A DNA stretch of 64,000 nt. It comes from Acidimicrobium ferrooxidans. GTDB lineage: Bacteria > Actinomycetota > Geothermincolia > Fen-727 > Anoxymicrobiaceae. The notes beneath the pieces were generated by a model. That model saw only the letters and a program-made list of their open reading frames with translations, searched no databases and was not told the DNA's origin. The stretch lies in contig DYIU01000004.1 of the NCBI GenBank assembly GCA_020723485.1, positions 172,448 through 236,447 on the forward strand, read 5' to 3'. Each line of letters starts with the position of its first letter. Position 1 is the stretch's first letter. Shown in pieces: positions 5,449-54,649 of the stretch. Position numbers and translations under genes: made by a program.

Positions 5449-6888
5449 CTAACCCAGGTCGTAAGGGACCTCCTCGATACCGGCCAGCCACCTGGCCAGC
5501 TGCTTCTTGGGCTCCATGTCGTATGTCCGGAGTATCGCGATGTCCTCCATTATCGGGGAGCCGCCGCCGTGCACACCGGCGTACTGCATCACCCCGGCCA
5601 TGCCGCTGCAGGTGTAGTCGCTGACCCACGCGTACAGCTTGTACATGTCCTCCGGGCTCACCCCGTCGACACGCTTCAGGTACTTCTTCACCAGGTCGCC
5701 CACCTCGGGGCTCACGAACTCCTTGTCGTACGGAAGCGTGGCCGGGAGTCCTCCGGCTATCTCACAGAGCAGGTCGTACTCGTGGTAGATGTTGACGCCG
5801 GCGTGCTTCCTCGCCACGTTGCAGAAGACCACGTCAGGTATCTGCGTCCCGGATGGGGACTTGATCGACTTCACCGCGGCGGCTATCCCGCAGCCATAGA
5901 CGATCTCGGCGGTGCTGATGAGCTCGGCGAGCTTGGAGTGGATGTGGTCTTCCTTGTCGATGCCGCTATACTCCGCGACCATCGCCGCGGTTCCCATTAT
6001 CACGTCGGTGACCGCCGGCTTGCAGCCCGTGTAGGAATGACGGTGGTAGAGCGAGAACAGCAGGGCTAGCTGGCCGCCGAACTCGGCTTCGCCGCAGAGG
6101 AACACGCGCTCCCACGGCACGAAGACATCGTCGAAGATGGTGAGGGACTCGATCTCACCCTTGCCTGAGTGAAGGCCGGCTATCTCCGGCACGCGGTCCC
6201 TGTAGCGCGACCCCCTGCACACGAGCTTCACGCCGGGGTGGTCACCGGGCACCGCGACTGCCACGGCCCAGTCACCTTCGTTCGGGCGCAGGAACCTGGT
6301 GGGTATGGCGATTATCTCCTCGGCGAGCGGAGCGAAGGAGTTGTGCGCCTTGGCTCCCCTGATGACAATGCCGTCCTTCTTCTTCTCAATAACCCTCAGG
6401 TAGAGGTCCGGGTCCGTCTGCTCGGCAGGCCTACGCCCGCGGTCGCCCTTGACGTCGGACTGGGCGCAGCACCCGACCTTGTCGCCCTTCTGGAATTCCT
6501 TCATGTAGGCCAGGAACCTGTCGTGGTACTCGGTCCCGTGAGCCTGGTCGCACATGTTGGTTATTACGGAGAGGGCGTTCAGTGAGTCTATCCCCATGCA
6601 CCTCGCTATGCAGGCCCCGGCCATCCGCGCGGATACGCGGGTCATCTCCTGCTTGGCCATGAGGTCCTCGGGGCTCTGGTGGATGTTGCAGAACCGGTTG
6701 ATGGTCTCGCCGGTAAGATGCGACTTGCACTTCGTAAGGTGCTCGTACTCGGGAATCTTGGTCATGTCGAAGGTGAGGTCGAGTATCTCCTGGCCGGGGA
6801 TGTTGTCCCTGCCCAGCACCTCGCCTCCCATGTAGACGTTGGGCTTCATCGCCAGCAGGCTCTCGTGGTACTCCTCTTTCGTCCGCAT
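5449..6888 (-). CDS. 4-hydroxybutyryl-CoA dehydratase / vinylacetyl-CoA isomerase family (AbfD-like) flavoprotein
   Basis: The 479-residue protein belongs to the 4-hydroxyphenylacetate 3-hydroxylase/4-hydroxybutyryl-CoA dehydratase family. Counted from the ATG at 6888, it keeps C-x3-C (C93, C97, in CIARCMG) and H-x6-C (H282, C289, in HRHSYTGC). These match the four ligands of the labile [4Fe-4S] cluster in the characterised dehydratase, so a radical-type dehydratase is favoured over a monooxygenase. A TTG lies one codon upstream; the ATG is the more likely start, with GGTGG before it. Downstream is an amidohydrolase gene. The natural substrate may be 4-hydroxybutyryl-CoA or an analogue; the exact reaction is inferred. 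Confidence 0.88.
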   Translation of the reverse strand: MRTKEEYHESLLAMKPNVYMGGEVLGRDNIPGQEILDLTFDMTKIPEYEHLTKCKSHLTGETINRFCNIHQSPEDLMAKQEMTRVSARMAGACIARCMGIDSLNALSVITNMCDQAHGTEYHDRFLAYMKEFQKGDKVGCCAQSDVKGDRGRRPAEQTDPDLYLRVIEKKKDGIVIRGAKAHNSFAPLAEEIIAIPTRFLRPNEGDWAVAVAVPGDHPGVKLVCRGSRYRDRVPEIAGLHSGKGEIESLTIFDDVFVPWERVFLCGEAEFGGQLALLFSLYHRHSYTGCKPAVTDVIMGTAAMVAEYSGIDKEDHIHSKLAELISTAEIVYGCGIAAAVKSIKSPSGTQIPDVVFCNVARKHAGVNIYHEYDLLCEIAGGLPATLPYDKEFVSPEVGDLVKKYLKRVDGVSPEDMYKLYAWVSDYTCSGMAGVMQYAGVHGGGSPIMEDIAILRTYDMEPKKQLARWLAGIEEVPYDLG

Positions 6889-7047
6889 CAACGATCACCA
6901 CCTGTTCATATTGATTGCCATCGGACGAGCAAATATGCGTCTACCGCTTGTGCGCGGCATGGTCTCAGGTGTCACGCCGCCCGTCTGGTCAGGGGCCCGG
7001 CGACATCAAGATTATTACTTGCGGGGACAAAAGACAATGACAGAATC

Positions 7048-9814: not shown

Positions 9815-9940
9815 TCTCTTCCGGGTCCTCAACGCTGCGAATTATATAAGATGTCCTGTTTTGCTGTTCCCAGCCGAGCGAGATGGATTAATATATTCCT
9901 GCCTCTGGCGGTACCTCAGGTGCGAAAGGAGTGGTTGGCA

Positions 9941-11449
9941 ATGACGATCAACATCGGCAGCTACCTCACCAATCGAGCGATGCTCAACCCCGACAAGGAG
10001 GCCATCGTCTGCGAGGGCGTGCGCTACACCTGGTCGGAGGCCAACGCCGAGGCCAACAAGCTCGCGCACGCCATGAAGAAGCTGGGAATAGGCCACCAGG
10101 ACAGGGTGGCGATACTCGCCCTGAACGAGCCCGAGTACCTGAGCATGTTCTACGGCCTGGGAAAGATCGGCGCCATCCTGGTGCCCATCAACTACCGCAT
10201 CGCCGGCCCGGAGATGCAGTACATCCTGGAGAACAGCGGGGCCAGGATACTGGTGTTCGGCCCCGAGTACGCCGACGTCGTGGATTCCTTCCGCTCGGAC
10301 GTCCAGATGGAGGAGTTCATCGCCCTCGGCGACTCGAAGCCCGAATGGGCGCTCTCCTACAACGAGCTCACGGGAGAGGTCCCCGACGATGAACCCGAGC
10401 TCGTCGGGGGTGGGGACGACGTCCTCTCCATACTCTACACGTCGGGCACGACCGGGCGGCCGAAAGGCGCGATGCTCACCCACCAGAACTACTTCGTGGG
10501 CTCCACGAACATCATTGCCACGGTGGGGCACCTCGGCGACACCGCCCTGCTGGTCCTCCCTCTCTTCCACATCGGCGGACTCGCCAATGTCCCGCTGGGC
10601 ACCCAGGCCGGCGTCAGGGCCGTCATGCTGAAGAGCCTTGACCCCAAGAGGTTCCTCGAGCTCATCGAGGAGGAGGGGGTCAACGTGTTCGGCTCGGTGC
10701 CGGTGCTGCTCCAGCTGCTCAAGATGGTGCCGGACTTCGAGAAGTACGACTGGAGCTCGGTCAAGATGGTGTTCGTGTACGCGGCCCCGCTCCCCGTCGC
10801 TCTGCTCGAGGAGTACGCCGAGGCGGGCATCGAGGTACGGAACCTCTACGGGCTCACCGAATCCTGCGGCATGGGCACGGTCATCGACGGCGAGCACTCG
10901 ATGACCAAGGCGGGCTCTTGCGGCCTCCCCGAGTTCTTCTCAGAGATAAAGCTCGTGGGCGATGACGGGAACGAGGTCGGGCCGGATGAGCTCGGCGAGG
11001 TGCTCATCCGGGGCGAGTTCGTGATGAAGGGTTACTGGAACAACCCGGAGGCTACCGCCGAGACGATAAGGGACGGCTGGCTGCACACCGGCGACATCGG
11101 CAGGAAGGACGCCGACGGGTTCCTCTACATAATGGACCGGAAGAAGGACATGATAATCTCCGGCGGCGAGAACATCTACCCGGCCGAGATAGAGGACCTG
11201 CTGATGCGGCACCCCAAGATCCAGGACGCCGGCGTGATCGGCTTCCCGGACGACCTCTGGGGGGAGGCGGTCCGGGCGGTAGTGGTAGTCGCCCCGGGTG
11301 AGACCCTGACCGAGGAAGAGCTGATCGAGTGGACCAAGGGCAAGATAGGCAAGTTCAAGATGCCCAAGTCCGTAGTCTTCACCGAGGCGCTCCCCCGGAC
11401 GCCGACCGGCAAGATTCTCAAGCGCGAGCTGCGCGACATGTTCAATTAG
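9941..11449 (+). CDS. Acyl-CoA synthetase (AMP-forming, ANL superfamily)
   Basis: The 502-residue protein has the AMP-binding P-loop YTSGTTGRPKGA, the A5-type NLYGLTESCG, the LHTGDIG motif and the C-terminal lysine motif PRTPTGKILKRELR. It therefore activates a carboxylic acid to its CoA thioester using ATP. AAAGGAG stands 9 nt before the ATG at 9941; the open frame extends far upstream but that part is antisense to the Fe-S gene and is not coding. It is the first gene of a probable operon with a FixC-like flavoprotein and a FixX-like ferredoxin, which suggests fatty or aromatic acid activation linked to acyl-CoA oxidation. Chain length specificity is unknown. Confidence 0.93.
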   Translation: MTINIGSYLTNRAMLNPDKEAIVCEGVRYTWSEANAEANKLAHAMKKLGIGHQDRVAILALNEPEYLSMFYGLGKIGAILVPINYRIAGPEMQYILENSGARILVFGPEYADVVDSFRSDVQMEEFIALGDSKPEWALSYNELTGEVPDDEPELVGGGDDVLSILYTSGTTGRPKGAMLTHQNYFVGSTNIIATVGHLGDTALLVLPLFHIGGLANVPLGTQAGVRAVMLKSLDPKRFLELIEEEGVNVFGSVPVLLQLLKMVPDFEKYDWSSVKMVFVYAAPLPVALLEEYAEAGIEVRNLYGLTESCGMGTVIDGEHSMTKAGSCGLPEFFSEIKLVGDDGNEVGPDELGEVLIRGEFVMKGYWNNPEATAETIRDGWLHTGDIGRKDADGFLYIMDRKKDMIISGGENIYPAEIEDLLMRHPKIQDAGVIGFPDDLWGEAVRAVVVVAPGETLTEEELIEWTKGKIGKFKMPKSVVFTEALPRTPTGKILKRELRDMFN

Positions 11450-11480
11450 GGTCAGACCACTTTCGTTGCGTGAGCAACAA
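11449..11480. repeat. Solo half-element B of the GGGGTCAG palindrome family
   Basis: The segment starts at the last base of the synthetase stop codon and reads GGGTCAGACCACTTTCGTT. It nearly matches one arm of element C at 13475-13506 but has no inverted partner nearby. A small internal hairpin, GTTGC-GTGA-GCAAC, has a GNRA-like loop. Confidence 0.75.
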
Positions 11481-11534
11481 TAAACACATCTTCAACATGA
11501 AGGGTGCGGGACTGGCCTGGGAGAGGGAGCCGAA

Positions 11535-13202
11535 GTGAGCGAATATGACGTCATCGTGGTCGGGGCCGGGTTCGGAGGCCCGGTCGCGGCGAAGAAATGC
11601 GCCGAGGCCGGCCTTCGCACCGTGATGCTGGAGCGCGGCGAGCGCGTGGGCCAGAAGGTGATATCCGGTCTCACCATCCCCTTCTACGGGTTCATATTCG
11701 GCCCCGCTTTTATCAGAGACGGCAACCCGCCCATCGAGCGCCCCGCGGACGGGATAATCAACTACATCGTGAAAGACATCGAGACGGGCGACATCGAGAT
11801 AGACGATACGCTGAAGATACCCAAGCCCCTCTCGCCGGTGCTCGCCTTCGGCTATAACGCATACTGCCAGCCGTTCTGCGAGTGGGAGGCGGACCGCGCG
11901 GTCGAGTCCGGGGTCGAGCTCCGCACCTCCACGGTGGCGGTCGACGTCCTCAGGGAGGACGGCGCGGTGGCCGGTGTGGTCACCGACGGGGGAGAACGCC
12001 TCGGCGCGAAGGTCGTGATAGACGCCGAGGGGTGCCAGGGCCTGCTGGCCATCAAGGCGGGGGTGCGGAAGAAGTACCCGCCCGACGTCATATCCCTGGC
12101 GGACTGCTACGACTACGAGATGTCGAAGGCCGACGTGGACCGGATATTCGGCCATACCCTGCGCTTCTGCTGGGGCTGGGACGAGCAGAAGGTCGCGCCC
12201 CCGCTCGGGTACGGCAACGGCCTGATGGTCTGGCCTTACAGGCAGAGCCTGCATTTCATTCAGGACCAGTGCCTCAAGACCGGCAGCGGGAAGGTCCCCA
12301 GCCTCAAGGACTTCGACGATTACCACCGCAACATCACCAGCGGCCTGCCGTGGTGGAGCGAGGAAGTGGCTCCTCACATACGCCTGCGCACGAGGATCTG
12401 GGACGGCTTCGAGATATTCGTGGGCCTCGACGACGAGCTCCGGGGAATGCCCAACCATGCCGACGGCATGATACTGATCGGCGACGCGGCCGGGCTCGAG
12501 AGCACGGAGCTCTGCGACGGGGTGCCTGCCGCATGGTTCTCCGCGGAGATCGCGGCGGACGTGGCCATCGACGCGATCCGGGCCGGCGATACCACGGCTT
12601 CTTTCCTGAAAAGATACGACGAGCGTATCAAGGCGCACCCCATAATCCAGTGGTCGATCTCAACGACGAACCGCCACGACCTGAGGTACGCGCAGGAGAA
12701 CCATGACATCGACATGCTTCGGAAGCTGGTCCACGACGGCTGGGGGCTTGGCGGCTTCGCCTCTATCACCACTCCGCTGCTGAGGATGATATTCGATTCG
12801 ATAAGCGAGGACCCGTCGATCCTCTCGAGCTGGATACGCATGTTCCCGCGCTACTACTACAACTGGGCGCACGAGCGCTACGGTGACGCGCCGGGAGGGC
12901 GCGAACGCCCCCGCGGAGTGCAGACGCTCGGGCACAGGGCGTTCGCCGCTTTCATGCGCTCGATGGACAGGTTCCTCCAGCGGTTCTCCTCGCCCGTCGC
13001 TAAGGCTGCGGCGTTCATGACGCCGGCGACGTCCGCCGCGAATCCCGTCATGAGGTTCCTCCTGCCGCGCGTCGAGCCGTTCTACCTGGCGGCGCTGAAG
13101 CTGCTCGAGCCGGTCACCGATCCCCTGAGCAGGAAGCTGGTCAGCTTCGTCACCCGCGCCGATCCCGCGATCTTCGACAGTCCTCCAGGAAGGGGGGAAT
13201 AA
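11535..13202 (+). CDS. FixC-like FAD-dependent oxidoreductase (ETF:quinone oxidoreductase-related)
   Basis: The 555-residue protein opens with the FAD-binding GAGFGGPVAAKKCAEAG and has a C-proximal GDAAG motif (ILIGDAAGLES) closing the FAD site. It resembles FixC/geranylgeranyl-reductase-like flavoproteins but carries a longer C-terminal extension of about 130 residues. The start is GTG at 11535 after GGGAG. The next gene, 1 nt downstream, encodes a FixX-like ferredoxin, so the two probably form an electron-transfer complex. Such complexes normally pass electrons from acyl-CoA dehydrogenases via ETF to quinone. No ETF genes are in the window, so the donor is unknown. Confidence 0.85.
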   Translation: MSEYDVIVVGAGFGGPVAAKKCAEAGLRTVMLERGERVGQKVISGLTIPFYGFIFGPAFIRDGNPPIERPADGIINYIVKDIETGDIEIDDTLKIPKPLSPVLAFGYNAYCQPFCEWEADRAVESGVELRTSTVAVDVLREDGAVAGVVTDGGERLGAKVVIDAEGCQGLLAIKAGVRKKYPPDVISLADCYDYEMSKADVDRIFGHTLRFCWGWDEQKVAPPLGYGNGLMVWPYRQSLHFIQDQCLKTGSGKVPSLKDFDDYHRNITSGLPWWSEEVAPHIRLRTRIWDGFEIFVGLDDELRGMPNHADGMILIGDAAGLESTELCDGVPAAWFSAEIAADVAIDAIRAGDTTASFLKRYDERIKAHPIIQWSISTTNRHDLRYAQENHDIDMLRKLVHDGWGLGGFASITTPLLRMIFDSISEDPSILSSWIRMFPRYYYNWAHERYGDAPGGRERPRGVQTLGHRAFAAFMRSMDRFLQRFSSPVAKAAAFMTPATSAANPVMRFLLPRVEPFYLAALKLLEPVTDPLSRKLVSFVTRADPAIFDSPPGRGE

Positions 13203-13203
13203 A

Positions 13204-13473
13204 GTGGGCAGCCAAGCCGACAGGTTCCCGGGAATAGAGTGGGTCGAGGGTGCCGGCGATTTCATAAAGATCGACACCGAGCTGTGCGACGCCTGCGCGA
13301 GATGTCTGAAGGTCTGCCTCGCGGACTGTTTCGAGATCTCCGAGAAGAAGGCCCGGGTCAGGAGCCTGGCCGGCTGCCTCGAGTGCGCGTCCTGCTGGTT
13401 CGTGTGCGAGCGCGGCGCCATCGACTTCAACTGGCCGCCCGGCGGCAAGGGCTACAAGAGCCTATGGGGCTAA
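13204..13473 (+). CDS. FixX-like ferredoxin
   Basis: The 89-residue protein has CDACARCLKVC and CLECASCWFVC, enough cysteines for two [4Fe-4S] clusters or one with extra residues, in the FixX/NapF-like ferredoxin fold. The start is GTG at 13204, with AGGAAGGGGGGA before it. It begins 1 nt after the FixC-like gene, so translation is likely coupled. It should pass electrons between the flavoprotein and its partner. The stop TAA is followed after one base by palindromic element C. Confidence 0.88.
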   Translation: MGSQADRFPGIEWVEGAGDFIKIDTELCDACARCLKVCLADCFEISEKKARVRSLAGCLECASCWFVCERGAIDFNWPPGGKGYKSLWG

Positions 13474-13474
13474 T

Positions 13475-13590
13475 GGGGTCAGACCACTTTCGTTCCGTTA
13501 GCAACAATGGCCACATCAACCACAGCAGGAGCACTATGATGTTGTTCGTGTCAATCAGTGTTGCTAACGGAACGAAAGTGGTCTGACCCC
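13475..13590. repeat. Palindromic element C (perfect 32-bp arms)
   Basis: The arms at 13475-13506 and 13559-13590 are perfect inverted copies that begin GGGGTCAGACCACTTTCGTT and end in GCAACA. The loop is 52 bp. The element fills the gap between two convergent genes: one base separates it from the ferredoxin TAA, and its last base is the first base of the heliorhodopsin stop triplet. The RNA hairpin could end transcription from both sides. Confidence 0.95.
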
Positions 13591-14384
13591 TATCGGTTCG
13601 CGAGGGTGCCCCCGAACACCTGCCAGGCCAGCGCCGACTTCGCGGCCAGGCTCAGGATGATATAGACCTTTTCGCCGAACAGGTAGTCCTCCCACGGACC
13701 CACCTTCTTGTACTGAAGAACCATGTTGACCGCGAAGATATTGAAAAAGATGAACAGCGACACGAGGATGTAATAGACGAAAGTGGGAATCTCGTTCGCC
13801 GGGTCGCTCGCCGCCTTCGCGAACACTATCGCTATGACGACCCAGGGTATTATCCCGGCGATGCACCCGAAGATGAACGCGGTCCAGTTGGTCTTCTCGG
13901 TCGCCTGGTTGTGAAGCTCCATCATCCACCCGAACAGTATCATCATCGCGTTCATGAAAAAGATCAGTATGAGGCTCACCAGGTCGTCGAGCCCTGACAG
14001 CATGGCGATGACCACGATCATCAGTGACGCGGTTATGGAGTACTCGATCCACCTGCCGTAGTTCGCTCCCTTCAGCAGGTTACCCTTGTACCATTCGAAT
14101 ATGCCGGGAGACGCGATGAGCAGGAGCGCGATCCCGCTGAGCAGCAGGAAGAGCGCCACGAGAGGGCCTATCCTCACCTGCCAGAGCTCGTCGCTGTACG
14201 GCACCGCCCTGCCCAGCGCCTGGCTGTACCTCAGGTATCGCAGTGACACCGGCAGCTTGAAGTCGCTGCTGAGCACCAGCATCAGAATCCCCTGGACTAT
14301 CAGCGCGAACCCGACCGCGGCGTTCCAGATCCTGAGGTTCCGGAACCGCTTCTCCATGGGCTGCTTCTGCACCTCGTCGGCCAT
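13590..14384 (-). CDS. Heliorhodopsin
   Basis: The 264-residue protein with seven predicted membrane helices matches the heliorhodopsin family in order. It has RWIEYSITAS with the counter-ion Glu at 114, NAMMILFGWMME, FIFGCIAGIIPW, FVYYILVSLFIFFN, and the last helix SLAAKSALAWQVF with the retinal-binding Lys at 249. In the family the N-terminus faces the cytoplasm, opposite to type-1 rhodopsins, and slow photocycles suggest a sensory or enzyme-modulating role. Against the 48C12 protein as I remember it, His23 and His80 align to Leu28 and Leu87. AAAGGAG precedes the ATG. It is divergent from the gene at 14566. No retinal synthesis gene is visible nearby. Confidence 0.93.
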   Translation of the reverse strand: MADEVQKQPMEKRFRNLRIWNAAVGFALIVQGILMLVLSSDFKLPVSLRYLRYSQALGRAVPYSDELWQVRIGPLVALFLLLSGIALLLIASPGIFEWYKGNLLKGANYGRWIEYSITASLMIVVIAMLSGLDDLVSLILIFFMNAMMILFGWMMELHNQATEKTNWTAFIFGCIAGIIPWVVIAIVFAKAASDPANEIPTFVYYILVSLFIFFNIFAVNMVLQYKKVGPWEDYLFGEKVYIILSLAAKSALAWQVFGGTLANR

Positions 14385-18275: not shown

Positions 18276-18425
18276 GAGCCCTCGGAGCCCGCGACCTGCA
18301 AGAACGGAGCAGTCTCCTCCTCCCCCTTTAACAGGCCGGCCCTTATATGACAGAATCTGAATGCCAGGGGGCGGCTTCCAGTAACTCAGCACTCAGAGAC
18401 TTCACGCTGCGCGGGGGTGAGCACG

Positions 18426-19823
18426 ATGGGCGGCAGGGCTGCGATAATCGGTTCAGGGGTCGGCGGAGCGGCGGCCGGAGCGCTGCTGGCAAAGCGAGGG
18501 TACGAAGTCGACCTTTTCGAGACCCACTCTTTCGGCGGCGGCCGCTGCGCGTCGATGGAGCGTGACGGATACACGGTCGATTTTGGCGTGCACATGTTCA
18601 GCCGCGGGGACGCCGGTCCCCACGGCGAGGTAAACCGCCTCGTCGGAGGCGACCTGCGGTGGATAACAAGGGACCCGCCCTGCCGCGTGATGGGAAAGAC
18701 GGAATTCGACTATCCGCTCGACATCAGGGCACTTTCGACACAGGTGGGTGTCGCCAGGAAACTCGGGGTCCGTCCGCGCAACTACCTCGGGGCATTCCGA
18801 CTGTTCAGGAGCCTCATGGCGGGGCGGGACGTGGACGCCAACGACTCCACGACCCTCAGGGATTACGTGTCCCGTTTCACAGACGACGTCATGATACACA
18901 CCTTCATGAACTGCCTGTGCCAGCTCTATTTCGCATTGTCATATATCGAGGCGTCGGCCGGGGAGTTCATATGGTCTTTCTCCCGGATGTTCAACGACGC
19001 GAGCTTCGGCTACCCGCGCGGAGGTTCCGGGAACATCCCGCTGTCGTTCCTCGGGTCGCTCGAGCGCCTGGGCGGAAAGGTGCACTTCGGGGAGCCGGTG
19101 AGGCGCCTCCATACCAGGGGGGGCCGCGTAACAGGAGTCGAGACAGAGCGTGGAGAATACCCCGCCGATATCGTCGTCTCGAATGCCGGCATCCGTGGGA
19201 CTGTCGAACTCGCCGGCAGGGACAGCGTCGGAAACGAGTTCGCCGAGCGCTCTGACAGGTACCGCGACTCGAACGCCTACGTGACCTTGAAGCTCGCTCT
19301 CGAAAGAAAGGTAGTGCCGTACCCGGTGGTCTTCTACATGCCGGACCTGCCGCCGGAGAGGATATTCGCGCACCTCGAGGACAGGACCGTCCCCGATGAC
19401 CCGTACATCTTCATGCCTGTTCCCACCAATCATGACGGCTCCCTCTCCCCGGAGGGGACCCAACTCGTCATCGCCGGCACGGCCGTTCCGGCCGACGCCG
19501 AGCCGGAGCTCTGTAACGCGATACTGGACCGTGTGTACGGGAGGATCCTGGACCTCTTCCCGGGGATAGAGGGCGCGATACTGTGGCAGTCCCGGACGGT
19601 CAGCGGGGATACGCGGGAGCTCACGTCACATAGAGCCGGCGAGTGCATCGGACTGGCACAGGTCCCCGGCCAGGTCGGAGAATCCCGGCCCGGACACCGC
19701 ACGCCCGTTGAAGGGCTGTTCCTCGTCGGCGCCGACGCGGGGGCCCGCGGCATCGGGACGGAGATGGCATCAGGCAGCGCTTTAAGCCTCATGCAGGCCG
19801 TCGCACAGAATGAGATGAGGTAG
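18426..19823 (+). CDS. CrtI/phytoene dehydrogenase-like FAD oxidoreductase
   Basis: The 465-residue protein starts with GSGVGGAAAGALLAKRGYEV, the FAD-binding motif, and FGGGRCASM. The C-terminal end GLFLVGADAGARGIGTEMA matches the second FAD motif of COG1233 carotenoid-desaturase-like proteins. I choose the ATG at 18426, with GGGGGTGAG before it; a GTG at 18417 lies inside that ribosome binding site. The stop overlaps the start region of the next, related gene, so they are co-transcribed and probably coupled. No phytoene synthase is nearby, so carotenoid desaturation is only one possibility. Confidence 0.82.
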   Translation: MGGRAAIIGSGVGGAAAGALLAKRGYEVDLFETHSFGGGRCASMERDGYTVDFGVHMFSRGDAGPHGEVNRLVGGDLRWITRDPPCRVMGKTEFDYPLDIRALSTQVGVARKLGVRPRNYLGAFRLFRSLMAGRDVDANDSTTLRDYVSRFTDDVMIHTFMNCLCQLYFALSYIEASAGEFIWSFSRMFNDASFGYPRGGSGNIPLSFLGSLERLGGKVHFGEPVRRLHTRGGRVTGVETERGEYPADIVVSNAGIRGTVELAGRDSVGNEFAERSDRYRDSNAYVTLKLALERKVVPYPVVFYMPDLPPERIFAHLEDRTVPDDPYIFMPVPTNHDGSLSPEGTQLVIAGTAVPADAEPELCNAILDRVYGRILDLFPGIEGAILWQSRTVSGDTRELTSHRAGECIGLAQVPGQVGESRPGHRTPVEGLFLVGADAGARGIGTEMASGSALSLMQAVAQNEMR

Positions 19824-19828
19824 TGAAC

Positions 19829-21160
19829 ATGAGAGTCGTCGTTGTAGGCGCGGGAGCGGCCGGACTGGCGGCAACGCACGCCCTGCGCAAGGCCGGGGCA
19901 GACGTCACCACCTTCGAGGCCGGGGACGCGCCCGGAGGCCGTGCCCGGTGCTTCGAGAAAGAGGGGTTCATCTTCGACACCGGCGCCCAGTTCATGGCGA
20001 ACGTCTGCCTCACCCAGATAAGGCTGTGCGAGGAGATGGGTATCGGGGCCGAGATAATACCGTTCAACCTGAAGGTGGCGTTCTGGAGAGACGGCAGGTC
20101 CTACTCCCTTCCCGGAACGGGTGGTGCGGCGGAAGCCGTACGCGGCATCCCGGAGCTCATGCGTTTCCGCGGCCTTCCCTGGAGGGTATACCCCCAGATG
20201 GCGAAGGTCGCCCTGGCCATGGTCAAGAGGTACGTAAACGTCGACATCGCGGCAATGAACCCGGAGTGCCTGATGGACCTGGCCGACACCAGCGTGGCGG
20301 AATTCACGCTGGAGCACGGCGGCAGGGAGGCCCTCGAATGGGCCATGGGGCCGATGGTGTCCTCCCTCACCCTGGGCGAAGCCGACGAGGTGTCTATACC
20401 CCACCTCATCGGCCTGATGGGACTCTACAAGGGGCTCCTGCTCCTCGAGAGGGGCATCGGGTCGCTACCCGCCGCACTGCACGAGCGCTGCAGCGAATCG
20501 ATAAGGCTCGGCACCCCTGTCAAAGAGATAGTCATCGACGGCGGCGCGGTCAGGGGGGTCGAGACCGCCGAGGGCTTCATGGAGGCCGACCACGTCATCT
20601 GCGCGACCACGGCCGGCGCCGCGCTCAAGCTGATGCCGGGACTTCCTGACACCATCAGAAAGCCCCTGGAGAAGATAAGGTACAGCTCCACCGTCCATGT
20701 AATGGTCGCGTTCGAAGAGCGGCTGCTTCCTGAAGGCCTGTACGCGCTGTCACTTCCGGCGCAGGCGGAGAGCTTCCTGCCCGGGCTCAACGACTGCAGC
20801 GGCAAGTCGCCCTATTTCGCGCCGCCGGGCCGGGGGCTGTCCCACTGCGTCACCTTCGGGCGGAGGGGACGCAAGGTGGCAGGGCTCTCCGACGAAGAGG
20901 CCACGGCCGCTGTCCTGAAGGAGCTCGAGCGCTTCGTCGGGCGCGTGCCGAAGCCGGTGCTGACCGAGGTGGTGCGCTGGGACGAGGCGATATGCCTCGA
21001 GCCGCCGGGGCAGTTCCCCGCGATGTACTGCCTGAAGCGCAACAACATCAGGGACGTCGCCGGACTCCACCTGGCCGGAGAGTACATGTACCTGGTCTCG
21101 TGCGTCGAAGGCGCACTGCGCAGCGGCGAGGACGCCGCGGCGGCGGTACTGGCCGATTAG
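19829..21160 (+). CDS. CrtI/protoporphyrinogen oxidase-like FAD oxidoreductase
   Basis: The 443-residue protein has RVVVVGAGAAGLAATHALRK, APGGRARCFE, and a C-terminal GLHLAGEYMYLVSCVEGAL segment typical of amine-oxidase-fold desaturases. A GTG at 19823 overlaps the previous stop, but GAGGT is placed better for the ATG at 19829. It is paralogous to the gene at 40879-42228, with shared phrases such as LIxxLPDTIRKPLE and ESPGQFPA or EPPGQFPA. The substrate is unknown; a hydrophobic ring or polyene is typical for the family. Confidence 0.82.
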   Translation: MRVVVVGAGAAGLAATHALRKAGADVTTFEAGDAPGGRARCFEKEGFIFDTGAQFMANVCLTQIRLCEEMGIGAEIIPFNLKVAFWRDGRSYSLPGTGGAAEAVRGIPELMRFRGLPWRVYPQMAKVALAMVKRYVNVDIAAMNPECLMDLADTSVAEFTLEHGGREALEWAMGPMVSSLTLGEADEVSIPHLIGLMGLYKGLLLLERGIGSLPAALHERCSESIRLGTPVKEIVIDGGAVRGVETAEGFMEADHVICATTAGAALKLMPGLPDTIRKPLEKIRYSSTVHVMVAFEERLLPEGLYALSLPAQAESFLPGLNDCSGKSPYFAPPGRGLSHCVTFGRRGRKVAGLSDEEATAAVLKELERFVGRVPKPVLTEVVRWDEAICLEPPGQFPAMYCLKRNNIRDVAGLHLAGEYMYLVSCVEGALRSGEDAAAAVLAD

Positions 21161-40878: not shown

Positions 40879-42228
40879 CTATGAATCCCCGATGACCATG
40901 TTGGCGGCCTTCTCTCCCGTCGCGAACGCACCTTCCGTGCAGGCGATAAGGAACAGGTGCTCGCCTGCCAGGTACAGCCCCTTCACGTCCCTGGTGTGGT
41001 GCTCCAGGAATTCGTGGATGGCCGGAAACTGCCCGGGGGACTCCAGGTTGATCGCCCTGTCCCACCGGATGCACTCGGTAAACATGGGCTCATCCGGCAT
41101 TTTCAGCCAGAACTTCTGGACCTCTTTGATAACACGCCTGCGCCGCTCTTTCTCGGGGAGTCGGCTGAGTTCCTCGTCGTGCCATCCACCTGTAAAGCAG
41201 TACAGCAGTCCAGCGCCGTCCGGTGCGGTCTTCATTCCGCCCGTTCCGGCAAGCTCGAAGATCGTGCTCAGGATCGAGTTCTCGCGCCTGGGGATCATCG
41301 TAACAGCCAGGTATTCGGGTGTAACCCTCTTTTCCAGGCCGAAGATGTAGTTGTAGCTCGAGCTGTATCCGCAGGTCTCGAGGGGTTTGCGGATGGTATC
41401 CGGCAGGTCCGGGATGAGCTGCCTCGTCAGAACGGCATCGGTGGTGCAGATGACCTGGTCAGCCTCCATGAACCCCTCACCGGTCTCCACTCCCTTGACC
41501 CGGTTGTCCTCGAGGACCACCCTGGTGACCGGCGTGGAGAGCCGGACATCATCCTTCACTACTTCATAAAGCGCCTCGTTGATTGAACCCATACCGTTTT
41601 CCATGACGCATACGCCCCTTCCGACGTATGCAAGTGCGGTGAGGTGCGCAATAGTGACATCTTCGGGGCGTGCCAGCACCATGGTTCCAAGGACCGGAGA
41701 GAAAAAATAGTCCAGGATCTCGGGCCCGCCGTGCTCGAGTGCGAACTGCGCCGTGCTTACATCCCCCAGTTCAAGGAGCGGACTGAAATCCCTGGTCTTG
41801 CGGTCGATCCTGCGCATGTATCGCAGCATGGCGAGCCCCACTTTAGCCATCTGCGGATAAGCCTTGATGGGCCACCCCCTGAATCTGAGGTTTTCTGGAA
41901 TGCTGTTCACCATTTCCAGGGGTTTGCCCATGAAGAGCGTGTACATCTTTCCGTTTCGCCAGAAGCCGATCCTCATGTTATCCGCCGTGAACACCTGGTC
42001 TGACATCCCGAGCTCTCTCACCAGCTTCTGAGTCACGGTCCACTGCTTCTCGGTCAACCCGGCGCCGATGGGTAGGAGAAACCCGTCCCTGCGCATGTTC
42101 CAGCAGCGTCCGCCGGGCCGGTCACTGGCCTCGAGGACCACATAGTCAACCCCGGCTTTCTTCAGGGTATAGGCAGCGGTCAAGCCGGCACAACCTGCTC
42201 CTATTACCACGACCTGCTTATCTCCCAT
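40879..42228 (-). CDS. CrtI-like FAD-dependent oxidoreductase (third copy)
   Basis: The 449-residue protein has VVVIGAGCAGLTAAYTLKK, RPGGRCWNMRRDGF and a C-terminal GLYLAGEHLFLIACTEGA, the amine-oxidase/phytoene-desaturase signature. It is clearly paralogous to the gene at 19829-21160. GGGAG precedes the ATG at 42228; the open frame runs further upstream through non-coding DNA that includes element F. DNA here is visibly less GC-rich than the other paralogue. Substrate unknown. Confidence 0.85.
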   Translation of the reverse strand: MGDKQVVVIGAGCAGLTAAYTLKKAGVDYVVLEASDRPGGRCWNMRRDGFLLPIGAGLTEKQWTVTQKLVRELGMSDQVFTADNMRIGFWRNGKMYTLFMGKPLEMVNSIPENLRFRGWPIKAYPQMAKVGLAMLRYMRRIDRKTRDFSPLLELGDVSTAQFALEHGGPEILDYFFSPVLGTMVLARPEDVTIAHLTALAYVGRGVCVMENGMGSINEALYEVVKDDVRLSTPVTRVVLEDNRVKGVETGEGFMEADQVICTTDAVLTRQLIPDLPDTIRKPLETCGYSSSYNYIFGLEKRVTPEYLAVTMIPRRENSILSTIFELAGTGGMKTAPDGAGLLYCFTGGWHDEELSRLPEKERRRRVIKEVQKFWLKMPDEPMFTECIRWDRAINLESPGQFPAIHEFLEHHTRDVKGLYLAGEHLFLIACTEGAFATGEKAANMVIGDS

Positions 42229-42401
42229 GATTGTCTCCCGCGCGTCGAACCCATTGACTTCTGGTCTGGAGCATCCCCAGGACAATATCAGGCAGTCGAA
42301 AGTGACGCAATAAAGGATCGAGTTCGCACTGTTCTTCAATGCCCCCGAAGTATCTGGTGGTAATGGTCCAACCCTGGGAGATGTGCGGCCGGTTCCCAGC
42401 G

Positions 42402-42564
42402 CCCCGCAGGTTTGAATCACAATAATTAACAATAGTATATAGTAATATCAATATTTATCACCACCCACAGCCTCAGCACGATTTTCCAGTTCGGACTGTT
42501 AATATTGAGGCTGGCTGTAAGGATTGTTAATTACTGACCACTTTTGTGATTCAAACCTGCGGGG
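42402..42564. repeat. Palindromic element F (CCGCAGGTTTGAATCACA ends)
   Basis: The left arm (42402-42433) and right arm (42523-42564) are inverted copies, except that the right arm has an extra 10-bp CTGACCACTT. Between the arms is AT-rich DNA. It shares its end sequence with element G at 62741. It lies upstream of the CrtI-like gene and about 240 bp downstream of the antitoxin. Confidence 0.9.
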
Positions 42565-52594: not shown

Positions 52595-54649
52595 CTAGAG
52601 CTTCTCGAGCGCGTCGGCGACGTCGGAGAGGCCGAGCCTCTCGAGCCGGTCGCGCCTGGGGATGCCCCTCTCGTCGAACCCGCGGAGCCGGTAATAGTCC
52701 TCGAGCATATAATCGTAGTCGACGAACCTGCTCTTTAGCTCCTCGATGGACGCTTTCTTGAGGTCGGTCCCGCCGATCCAGGGCAGAAGCTTGCCGACCG
52801 TCGTCAGCACCTTGAAGAGGTGCGGGAGCAGGAACTTGCGGGTCATCTCCTTGTTGGAGTCCGCTATCTTCTGGTTTCTTATCTTGAAGCGCGTGGTCAT
52901 GCTCATCATGGGGAAGAGGACCTTGGCGAGGTTCGAGGTGTAGCCCTCGAGGTGTGGGACCAGGATGCGCTCGGGGATCATGTCGTCGGCCTTCCTCGCG
53001 CCGCAGAGGTTGCCGATGGCGCGCTTTGTATACCAGGCGCGGTTGCCAACATCCATGAGCTCTTCCTTGGTGTATCCGGCCCCGGTGACCGCGTTCACCA
53101 TGTCCCGGAATATCTCGATGCCGTCCATCGACCACCAGGCGTACAGGCAGATGACGGCCGAGCCCGCCAGCTGTCCCCAGGCCTGCGCCGCGATGGTCTG
53201 CGCCGCCTTGCCCTCGCGCCTCTGTGGCTTGGTGCCCTTCACGCCTACGGCCTTGAAGCTCACGTTCCCGAGCTCGGCCATCAGGTTGTCGTCGTTCACG
53301 TGGCAGGCGCCGCGTATGCCCGTGCCGTAGGTGAGGGCCATCGACCAGAGGGCCCTCGGGTCGTGCATGGGGGCTTCCAGGCCCTTGACGTGTATGGCGT
53401 ACTCCTCGCCCCCGTATTTCTTCGAGAGCGCCCTGCTCCCTTCGGCGAGCTGGTCGCCGAACCCTTCCCGCTTCGCCGTCATCTCGACCAGCTTCACCAG
53501 GAGTTCGGGCTTGTTCCAGCCCAGCTCGAGGCCGCCCGTGTCCTCCTTCGTGATGAGCCCGCGCTCGTACGCCTCGGTGGCGTAGGCGATGGTGCTCCCG
53601 GTGGAGATGCAGTCGATGCCGTACCGGTCGGTCAGCTCGTTGGCCTTGGAGACGGCCTCGAGGTTGTCGCACCGCTGCAGCGTCCCCAGGCCGGCCGCGC
53701 CCTCGTACTCGAGGCCGGGGCCCTCTTCCATTGCGAACGGCCCGGCATCTATCTTGACGACCCGCTTGCAGGCGACCGGGCACCCGTAGCAGGCGTGGGT
53801 CTTGGTCATTATCTTCTCTGCGACGGTCACGCCGGAGAGGGCGTCCATGCCCTTCTCCCACTGCGCCTCGCGCCAGTTCTTGACCGGCACGTCCGAGATG
53901 GCCATCCCCATCTCCATGTGGACGTTGGAGCCGAAGGCGTGCAGCCCGTCCGCGGTGATGCTGGTCTTTATCTCGAATATGCAGCGCTCGCGCACCGCCT
54001 TGTATGCCTCCTCGTCGGCGATGGGGGTCTTGGACTTTCCGCGGAACGCGACGGCCTTGAGCTTCTTGGAGCCCATCACCGCCCCCATCCCCGTGCGCCC
54101 GGCCAGGCTCCCCTTGTCGTTCACAATGGCGGCGAACTTGACCATGTTCTCGCCGCCCTGGCCGATCGACATCACGCGGGCGCGCTTGTCCGTCTCGGCC
54201 GTGACCAGCTCCTCGGTCTCGAATGCGTCCTTGCCCCACAGGTGCGAGGCGTCGCGTATCTCCACCCCTTCGTCGGTCACGTAGAGGTAGACGGGCTTCT
54301 CGGAGGCGCCGGTGATTATTATCCCGTCGTATCCGGTGGCCCTGAACTGGGGAGAGACCTGGCCCCCCATGCTGGACTCGCCCCAGATGCCGGTGAGCGG
54401 CGAGCGCGCGCACACCTCGAGGCGGGAGCAGCCGGGGAGGGTCGTCCCGGCCAGCGGGCCGTGCATTATCATGAGCGGGTTGTCAGGCCCCAGTGGGTCC
54501 GTGTCCCAGGCCCCCATGTCAAAGAACAGCTTTGCCGCGAGCCCCGAACCGCCGAGGTACTTGCGGTAGAGCTCGGGAGCTATCTCCATATCCTCGGTGG
54601 TCCCCGTCGTGAGGTCGACCCTGAGTATCTTCCCGTAGTATCCGTTCAA
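52595..54649 (-). CDS. aor: Aldehyde:ferredoxin oxidoreductase (tungsten-type)
   Basis: The 684-residue protein has the AOR N-domain (MNGYYGKILRVDLTTG, CSRLEVCARSPLTG) and the [4Fe-4S] ligands C287, C290 and C294 in ACYGCPVACKR. A fourth Cys lies in NLCGARKADD. GRTGMGAVMGSKKLKA binds the tungsto-bispterin. It oxidises an aldehyde to an acid and reduces ferredoxin, or works in reverse on activated acids; some family members belong to benzoyl-CoA reductase complexes. The start is a TTG at 54649 behind GGGGGGA. It is apparently the first gene of the run into the zinc-ribbon pair. The substrate cannot be read from sequence. Confidence 0.93.
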   Translation of the reverse strand: MNGYYGKILRVDLTTGTTEDMEIAPELYRKYLGGSGLAAKLFFDMGAWDTDPLGPDNPLMIMHGPLAGTTLPGCSRLEVCARSPLTGIWGESSMGGQVSPQFRATGYDGIIITGASEKPVYLYVTDEGVEIRDASHLWGKDAFETEELVTAETDKRARVMSIGQGGENMVKFAAIVNDKGSLAGRTGMGAVMGSKKLKAVAFRGKSKTPIADEEAYKAVRERCIFEIKTSITADGLHAFGSNVHMEMGMAISDVPVKNWREAQWEKGMDALSGVTVAEKIMTKTHACYGCPVACKRVVKIDAGPFAMEEGPGLEYEGAAGLGTLQRCDNLEAVSKANELTDRYGIDCISTGSTIAYATEAYERGLITKEDTGGLELGWNKPELLVKLVEMTAKREGFGDQLAEGSRALSKKYGGEEYAIHVKGLEAPMHDPRALWSMALTYGTGIRGACHVNDDNLMAELGNVSFKAVGVKGTKPQRREGKAAQTIAAQAWGQLAGSAVICLYAWWSMDGIEIFRDMVNAVTGAGYTKEELMDVGNRAWYTKRAIGNLCGARKADDMIPERILVPHLEGYTSNLAKVLFPMMSMTTRFKIRNQKIADSNKEMTRKFLLPHLFKVLTTVGKLLPWIGGTDLKKASIEELKSRFVDYDYMLEDYYRLRGFDERGIPRRDRLERLGLSDVADALEKL

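Follow-up and report, generated by a model that had tools for sequence, protein, structure and literature searches.

What would a light-sensing protein do in an apparently anaerobic bacterium, and from where would it take its retinal? The question is raised by a gene of an uncultured actinobacterium (Actinomycetota, class Ca. Geothermincolia), found in a stretch of 64,000 nucleotides that we analysed as a whole and call the window. An earlier note, made from the sequence letters, had read the gene as a heliorhodopsin (HeR) beside a metabolic operon, with no retinal pathway in sight. Here, we examine the protein, its cofactor supply, its variation among relatives and its gene neighbours.

Identity and surroundings of the heliorhodopsin gene

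The gene, its two hallmark codons and its adjoining elements are as follows.

13590..14384, minus strand: heliorhodopsin of 264 residues, with seven helices and an ECL1 beta-hairpin (PF18761, NF038020, AlphaFold2 model)
14043..14045, minus strand: codon of E114, the TM3 counter-ion (TaHeR E108, 48C12 E107), invariant in 139 HeRs
13638..13640, minus strand: codon of K249, the Schiff-base lysine (TaHeR K238, 48C12 K241), invariant in all aligned HeRs reaching the column
9935..13473, plus strand: operon of an acyl-CoA synthetase, a FixC-like flavoprotein and a FixX/HgcB-like ferredoxin, convergent to the HeR gene and not co-transcribed with it
13475..13590, no strand: 35-nt inverted repeat, 97% complementary, with a 46-nt loop, between the HeR gene and the convergent ferredoxin gene

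The window gene is confirmed as a genuine heliorhodopsin. Its reading frame begins with ATG after a good Shine-Dalgarno sequence (GAAAGGAG) and ends with TAG at 13592-13590. The profile search proposed in the earlier note gave 324.5 bits with Pfam PF18761 (cut-off 26.7) and 334.3 bits with the HeR model NF038020 of NCBIfam (cut-off 100). The closest solved structures by sequence are all heliorhodopsins, TaHeR with E=1.4e-74 and 48C12 with E=4e-59.

The structural modelling, also proposed there, agrees. The AlphaFold2 model, built from a 75-row alignment of HeR loci, has a pLDDT of 92.7 and a pTM of 0.88, and contains the seven helices and the family ECL1 hairpin (strands 43-54 and 59-71). In a Foldseek search of the PDB, heliorhodopsins alone are on top, with TM 0.90 and 1.2 Å for TaHeR (6is6), while the type-1 rhodopsins follow at TM 0.54-0.66. 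No rival seven-helix family makes a better match in that search.

E114 and K249 had been numbered correctly and both are in place in the model. The SALAWQVF helix is present too, and in the alignment S245 and K249 form the SxxxK of TM7. TaHeR, from Thermoplasmatales archaeon SG8-52-1 (6is6/7u55), is 51% identical and has in common the counter-ion, the lysine and the R105/E227 pair. By homology, the topology is predicted to be inverted, with the N-terminus inside. Heliorhodopsins with all-trans-retinal absorb maximally at about 530-556 nm (PMC7807009).

The HeR gene looks monocistronic, because the operon converges on it from one side and the gene of an FAD protein diverges on the other, and the window locus holds no co-transcribed partner gene. 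The acyl-CoA synthetase/FixC/FixX operon does adjoin it, as had been noted without strands, but membership in the FixC operon is rejected, the HeR gene lying on the opposite, minus strand and convergent. The same convergent acyl-CoA synthetase/FixC-like order adjoins the HeR gene at locus L093 (genome G005).

The inverted repeat starts at 13590, the final base of the HeR stop TAG, and folds as RNA with −75.9 kcal/mol (z −11). A related 28-mer lies at 11448-11475, and a search of the repeat against plasmids gave no match. It could be a MITE- or REP-like element, or a two-way transcription terminator.

Retinal supply in the class

We searched 31 genomes of Ca. Geothermincolia, all draft assemblies and mostly metagenome-derived where named; hot springs or fens are the source of some named relatives. 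HeR scores above the curated cut-off in 23 of them. At L075, on a 7.7-kb contig (G018:C52), HeR is represented by just two weak fragments that lie apart, from a decayed or very divergent HeR. The window has these further genes that bear on its metabolism.

52595-54649: AOR, with AFOR_N and AFOR_C domain matches
5449-6891: the ‘AbfD-like’ protein, a member of the HpaB/4-BUDH family keeping the C-x3-C and H-x6-C motifs
18417-19823, 19823-21160 and 40879-42432: three CrtI/HpnE-like flavoproteins of the amine-oxidoreductase family, in a genome without phytoene or squalene synthase

The AOR and the AbfD-like dehydratase, which had been pointed out earlier, are thus real. The haem-copper oxidase COX1, taken here as the mark of an aerobic respirer, is above the cut-off in 0/31 class genomes, with eight controls positive. 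Phytoene/squalene synthase (PF00494) is likewise found in 0/31, with 7/14 control genomes positive.

RPE65-type cleavage enzymes occur in none of 39 relatives, with two controls positive, and Blh/BCD in none of the same number. The first Blh/BCD search had no positive control, so the profile was checked on other HeR carriers and was positive in two haloarchaeal HeR genomes. The organism hence lacks the combination by which we define a retinal producer, phytoene synthase with either Blh/BCD or RPE65.

The reading of an apparently anaerobic genome with no known retinal route is therefore supported, and it holds class-wide. Since neither pathway genes nor COX1 are found across the class, scavenging of retinal is the simplest and most likely reading for these apparent anaerobes. 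According to Shihoya 2019 as quoted in PMC9296517, HeR quickly takes up external retinal, and organisms lacking the pathway make use of it. Saccharibacteria are a further precedent for scavenging (PMC9296517), and Bathyarchaeota have HeR with an incomplete retinal pathway (PMC7110647).

The puzzle of a light sensor with no cofactor source is thus real but not unique to this genome. HeRs of strict anaerobes are published for MORN-HeR Firmicutes (PMC8612252) and the Bathyarchaeota (PMC7110647), so that HeR in anaerobes, or without retinal genes, is not new. Unlike those, the window HeR has no MORN or Zn-finger fusion, and the gene absence was checked here across a class.

Retinal made in-house, by an unrecognised and perhaps oxygen-independent pathway using the CrtI/HpnE-like flavoproteins, is an unlikely source. 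Several such proteins are encoded in the window itself and HeR is retained class-wide, but they score far under the CrtI/CrtD cut-offs (e.g. 90 bits against 238.1). Moreover, the lack of phytoene synthase in all the class genomes means that known enzymes would supply neither a C40 nor a C30 carotenoid precursor, and the known carotenoid-cleaving enzymes require O2. For the low scores and the missing phytoene synthase, we rejected these CrtI-like neighbours as a retinal pathway.

Leucines in place of the cavity histidines

The residue survey of the earlier note was right on E114 and K249 and missed the most unusual feature of the protein, the exchange of both Schiff-base-cavity histidines for leucines. 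The alignment identifies three replaced positions.

14301..14303, minus strand: codon of L28, replacing a cavity histidine (H23 of both TaHeR and 48C12)
14124..14126, minus strand: codon of L87, replacing the other cavity histidine (TaHeR H82, 48C12 H80)
14031..14033, minus strand: codon of T118, replacing a serine (48C12 S111, TaHeR S112)

The two cavity histidines are usual in the family, though not a published condition of membership. About 140 HeRs are readable at both positions, 126 being His-His, 13 Leu-Leu (12 distinct records, since L018 and L135 are one) and one Leu-His. The last, L172 (G057), has Glu at the Q26 position and is a possible intermediate of the switch.

Other residues go with the leucines. 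Thr stands at S111 (48C12 numbering) in 10 of the 13 Leu-Leu HeRs and in 0/126 His-His ones, and in two class clades A77G accompanies T111 in 8/8 (1/126 among His-His). N16, Y92, R104, E107, E149, E230, S237 and K241 are invariant in the Leu-Leu HeRs. Compared with the family founder 48C12 (6su3, 6uh3), the window HeR conserves all other residues of the hydrogen-bond network, whereas the replacement of H23, H80 and S111 breaks the proposed H80-H23-Q26-W246 relay.

Published work sees in the cavity histidine pair a likely terminal acceptor of the proton and a relay to W246 (PMC9726877). In that study the O state is lost in H80F, though M is still formed by TaHeR carrying both H23F and H82F, and the pair may therefore be less important than has been proposed. 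Our literature search returned no paper on natural Leu-Leu HeRs; an earlier mention in Kovalev 2020 or Pushkarev 2018 is possible, and the variant is probably, though not demonstrably, new to the literature.

The Leu-Leu HeRs fall into three groups in a tree built without the trait columns. They are the window HeR with L093, L090, L088 and L091; L092 with L073, L087, L089 and L085; and L135 with L145 from another actinobacterial family. At minimum three changes are needed, two of them in Ca. Geothermincolia, and the starred branches force three. The class HeRs make one clade in a 61-row tree (support 99/99), and a 140-row quick tree does not resolve them as a single group.

A recombined N-terminal Leu-Leu segment shared between class clades A and B is unlikely, because both the N-half and C-half trees separate the two. 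The AU test keeps the clades apart with p=0.028 for the N half and p=0.0005 for the C half.

Selection has maintained the variant. Among pairs other than window/L093, excluded for ambiguous bases, dN/dS of the Leu-Leu HeRs is 0.085-0.171 for pairs from the class, with 0.313 for the L135/L145 pair, and that of His-His pairs is 0.086-0.166. The leucine codons vary synonymously (CTG, CTC, CTT, CTA, TTG) while the leucine itself is retained. Since its dN/dS within the class is as low as that of the His-His pairs, the Leu-Leu HeR is a variant under purifying selection and not one in decay.

Conceivably, the opsin needs no retinal and acts as a scaffold in the membrane or senses another ligand, and the missing retinal genes and the lost histidine relay of the Leu-Leu forms would suit such a role. 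We doubt it, as purifying selection acts on the Leu-Leu HeRs and every one of them has both K249 and E114, which an apo-protein would have no reason to keep.

Relaxed selection in a decaying opsin is a very improbable cause of the His-to-Leu changes. Function-linked residues are lost, and the fragments in G018 suggest that HeR may decay in some class members. Against this, the within-class dN/dS matches that of His-His pairs, the two positions change in concert and always to Leu, this has happened on at least three occasions, and S111T and A77G track the change.

A contaminant or mis-binned contig is highly improbable: the window genome (3.36 Mb) is a draft, but it is 95% complete with 0.11% contamination, the window lies on a contig of 335 kb, the nearest HeRs belong to this same family and class, and L093 has the same convergent neighbours.

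Gene partners in relatives and a proposed function

In three class relatives, the HeR gene is followed by a gene for Pyr_excise, a UV-dimer glycosylase of the T4 endonuclease V type.

L083:9627-9974, on the HeR strand: Pyr_excise
L074:8180-8533 (L074 is the same as L045), on the HeR strand: Pyr_excise
L088:6782-7162, on the HeR strand: Pyr_excise

The match to PF03013 is about 95 bits in L083 and L088. In all three, Pyr_excise is the next gene 3′ of HeR, after a gap of 12-28 bp. These are the only Pyr_excise genes in the 31 class genomes, each next to HeR, and the pairs span two families and both His-His and Leu-Leu HeRs. The pairing is absent from the window genome and from 28/31 class genomes.

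A coupling of HeR to UV-damage repair through photolyase is already known (PMC9769723), the sole relevant match in our literature search on HeR and pyrimidine dimers. There, TfHeR of Trichococcus goes with a class II CPD photolyase. The class pairs resemble it in linking HeR to a gene for UV-dimer repair, but their partner is a DNA glycosylase, and no such gene stands beside the window HeR.

Two further neighbours were seen. In L088, a homologue of the window HpaB/AbfD-like protein (L088:8034-9521, G004) precedes HeR by 27 bp in the same orientation, making an apparent AbfD-like/HeR/Pyr_excise operon. At 10 loci of f5, the other main family of the class, a gene for an XRE-cupin regulator (about 180 aa) is located upstream of HeR in the same orientation, at most a few hundred bases away (L073, L077, L078, L080, L081, L082, L085, L087, L089 and L092). 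We rejected it as a correlate of Leu-Leu, since it is found with His-His and Leu-Leu HeRs alike.

Taken with the retinal searches, we consider it probable that the window protein is a vertically inherited HeR of Ca. Geothermincolia that would bind external retinal and act as a non-pumping light sensor or regulator. Light would isomerise the retinal and the Schiff base would hand its proton to E114. The proton could not reach the H80/H23 pair proposed for 48C12, because both cavity histidines are leucines, and may be held on E114 or on a water cluster of E114, R111 and E238.

The signal would then leave by a cytoplasmic network of R111, E238, Y99 and N21 rather than by the H80-H23-Q26-W246 relay, and the output would pass through the cytoplasmic face to a putative partner. 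A proton path ending at E114 or its water cluster, modelled on work with His-containing HeRs, is put forward with less assurance than the sensor role itself. The output might serve the avoidance or repair of light damage, as is hinted by the relatives that pair HeR with the UV-dimer glycosylase.

More tentatively still, the Leu-Leu HeRs may form a functional class that arose convergently and runs a different photocycle. Without a histidine acceptor, the Schiff-base proton would stay on or near the counter-ion and give a distinct signalling state. Formation of the holo-protein, needing both scavenged retinal and light, could in that case report nearness to an oxic and lit zone.

The role of the cavity histidines is a debated centre of the HeR mechanism, and the literature consulted here probes it by laboratory mutants and simulations. 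At least three times, both histidines have been replaced in nature, and close His-His sisters are available for comparison (e.g. L082/L094 against L087/L092 in one family). Hence, H23 and H80 as proton acceptor and signal relay can be tested in natural pairs. Moreover, purifying selection keeps the opsin in an apparently anaerobic class for which no route of pigment synthesis is known. As this holds for the class as a whole, we argue that retinal may be a traded, vitamin-like cofactor.
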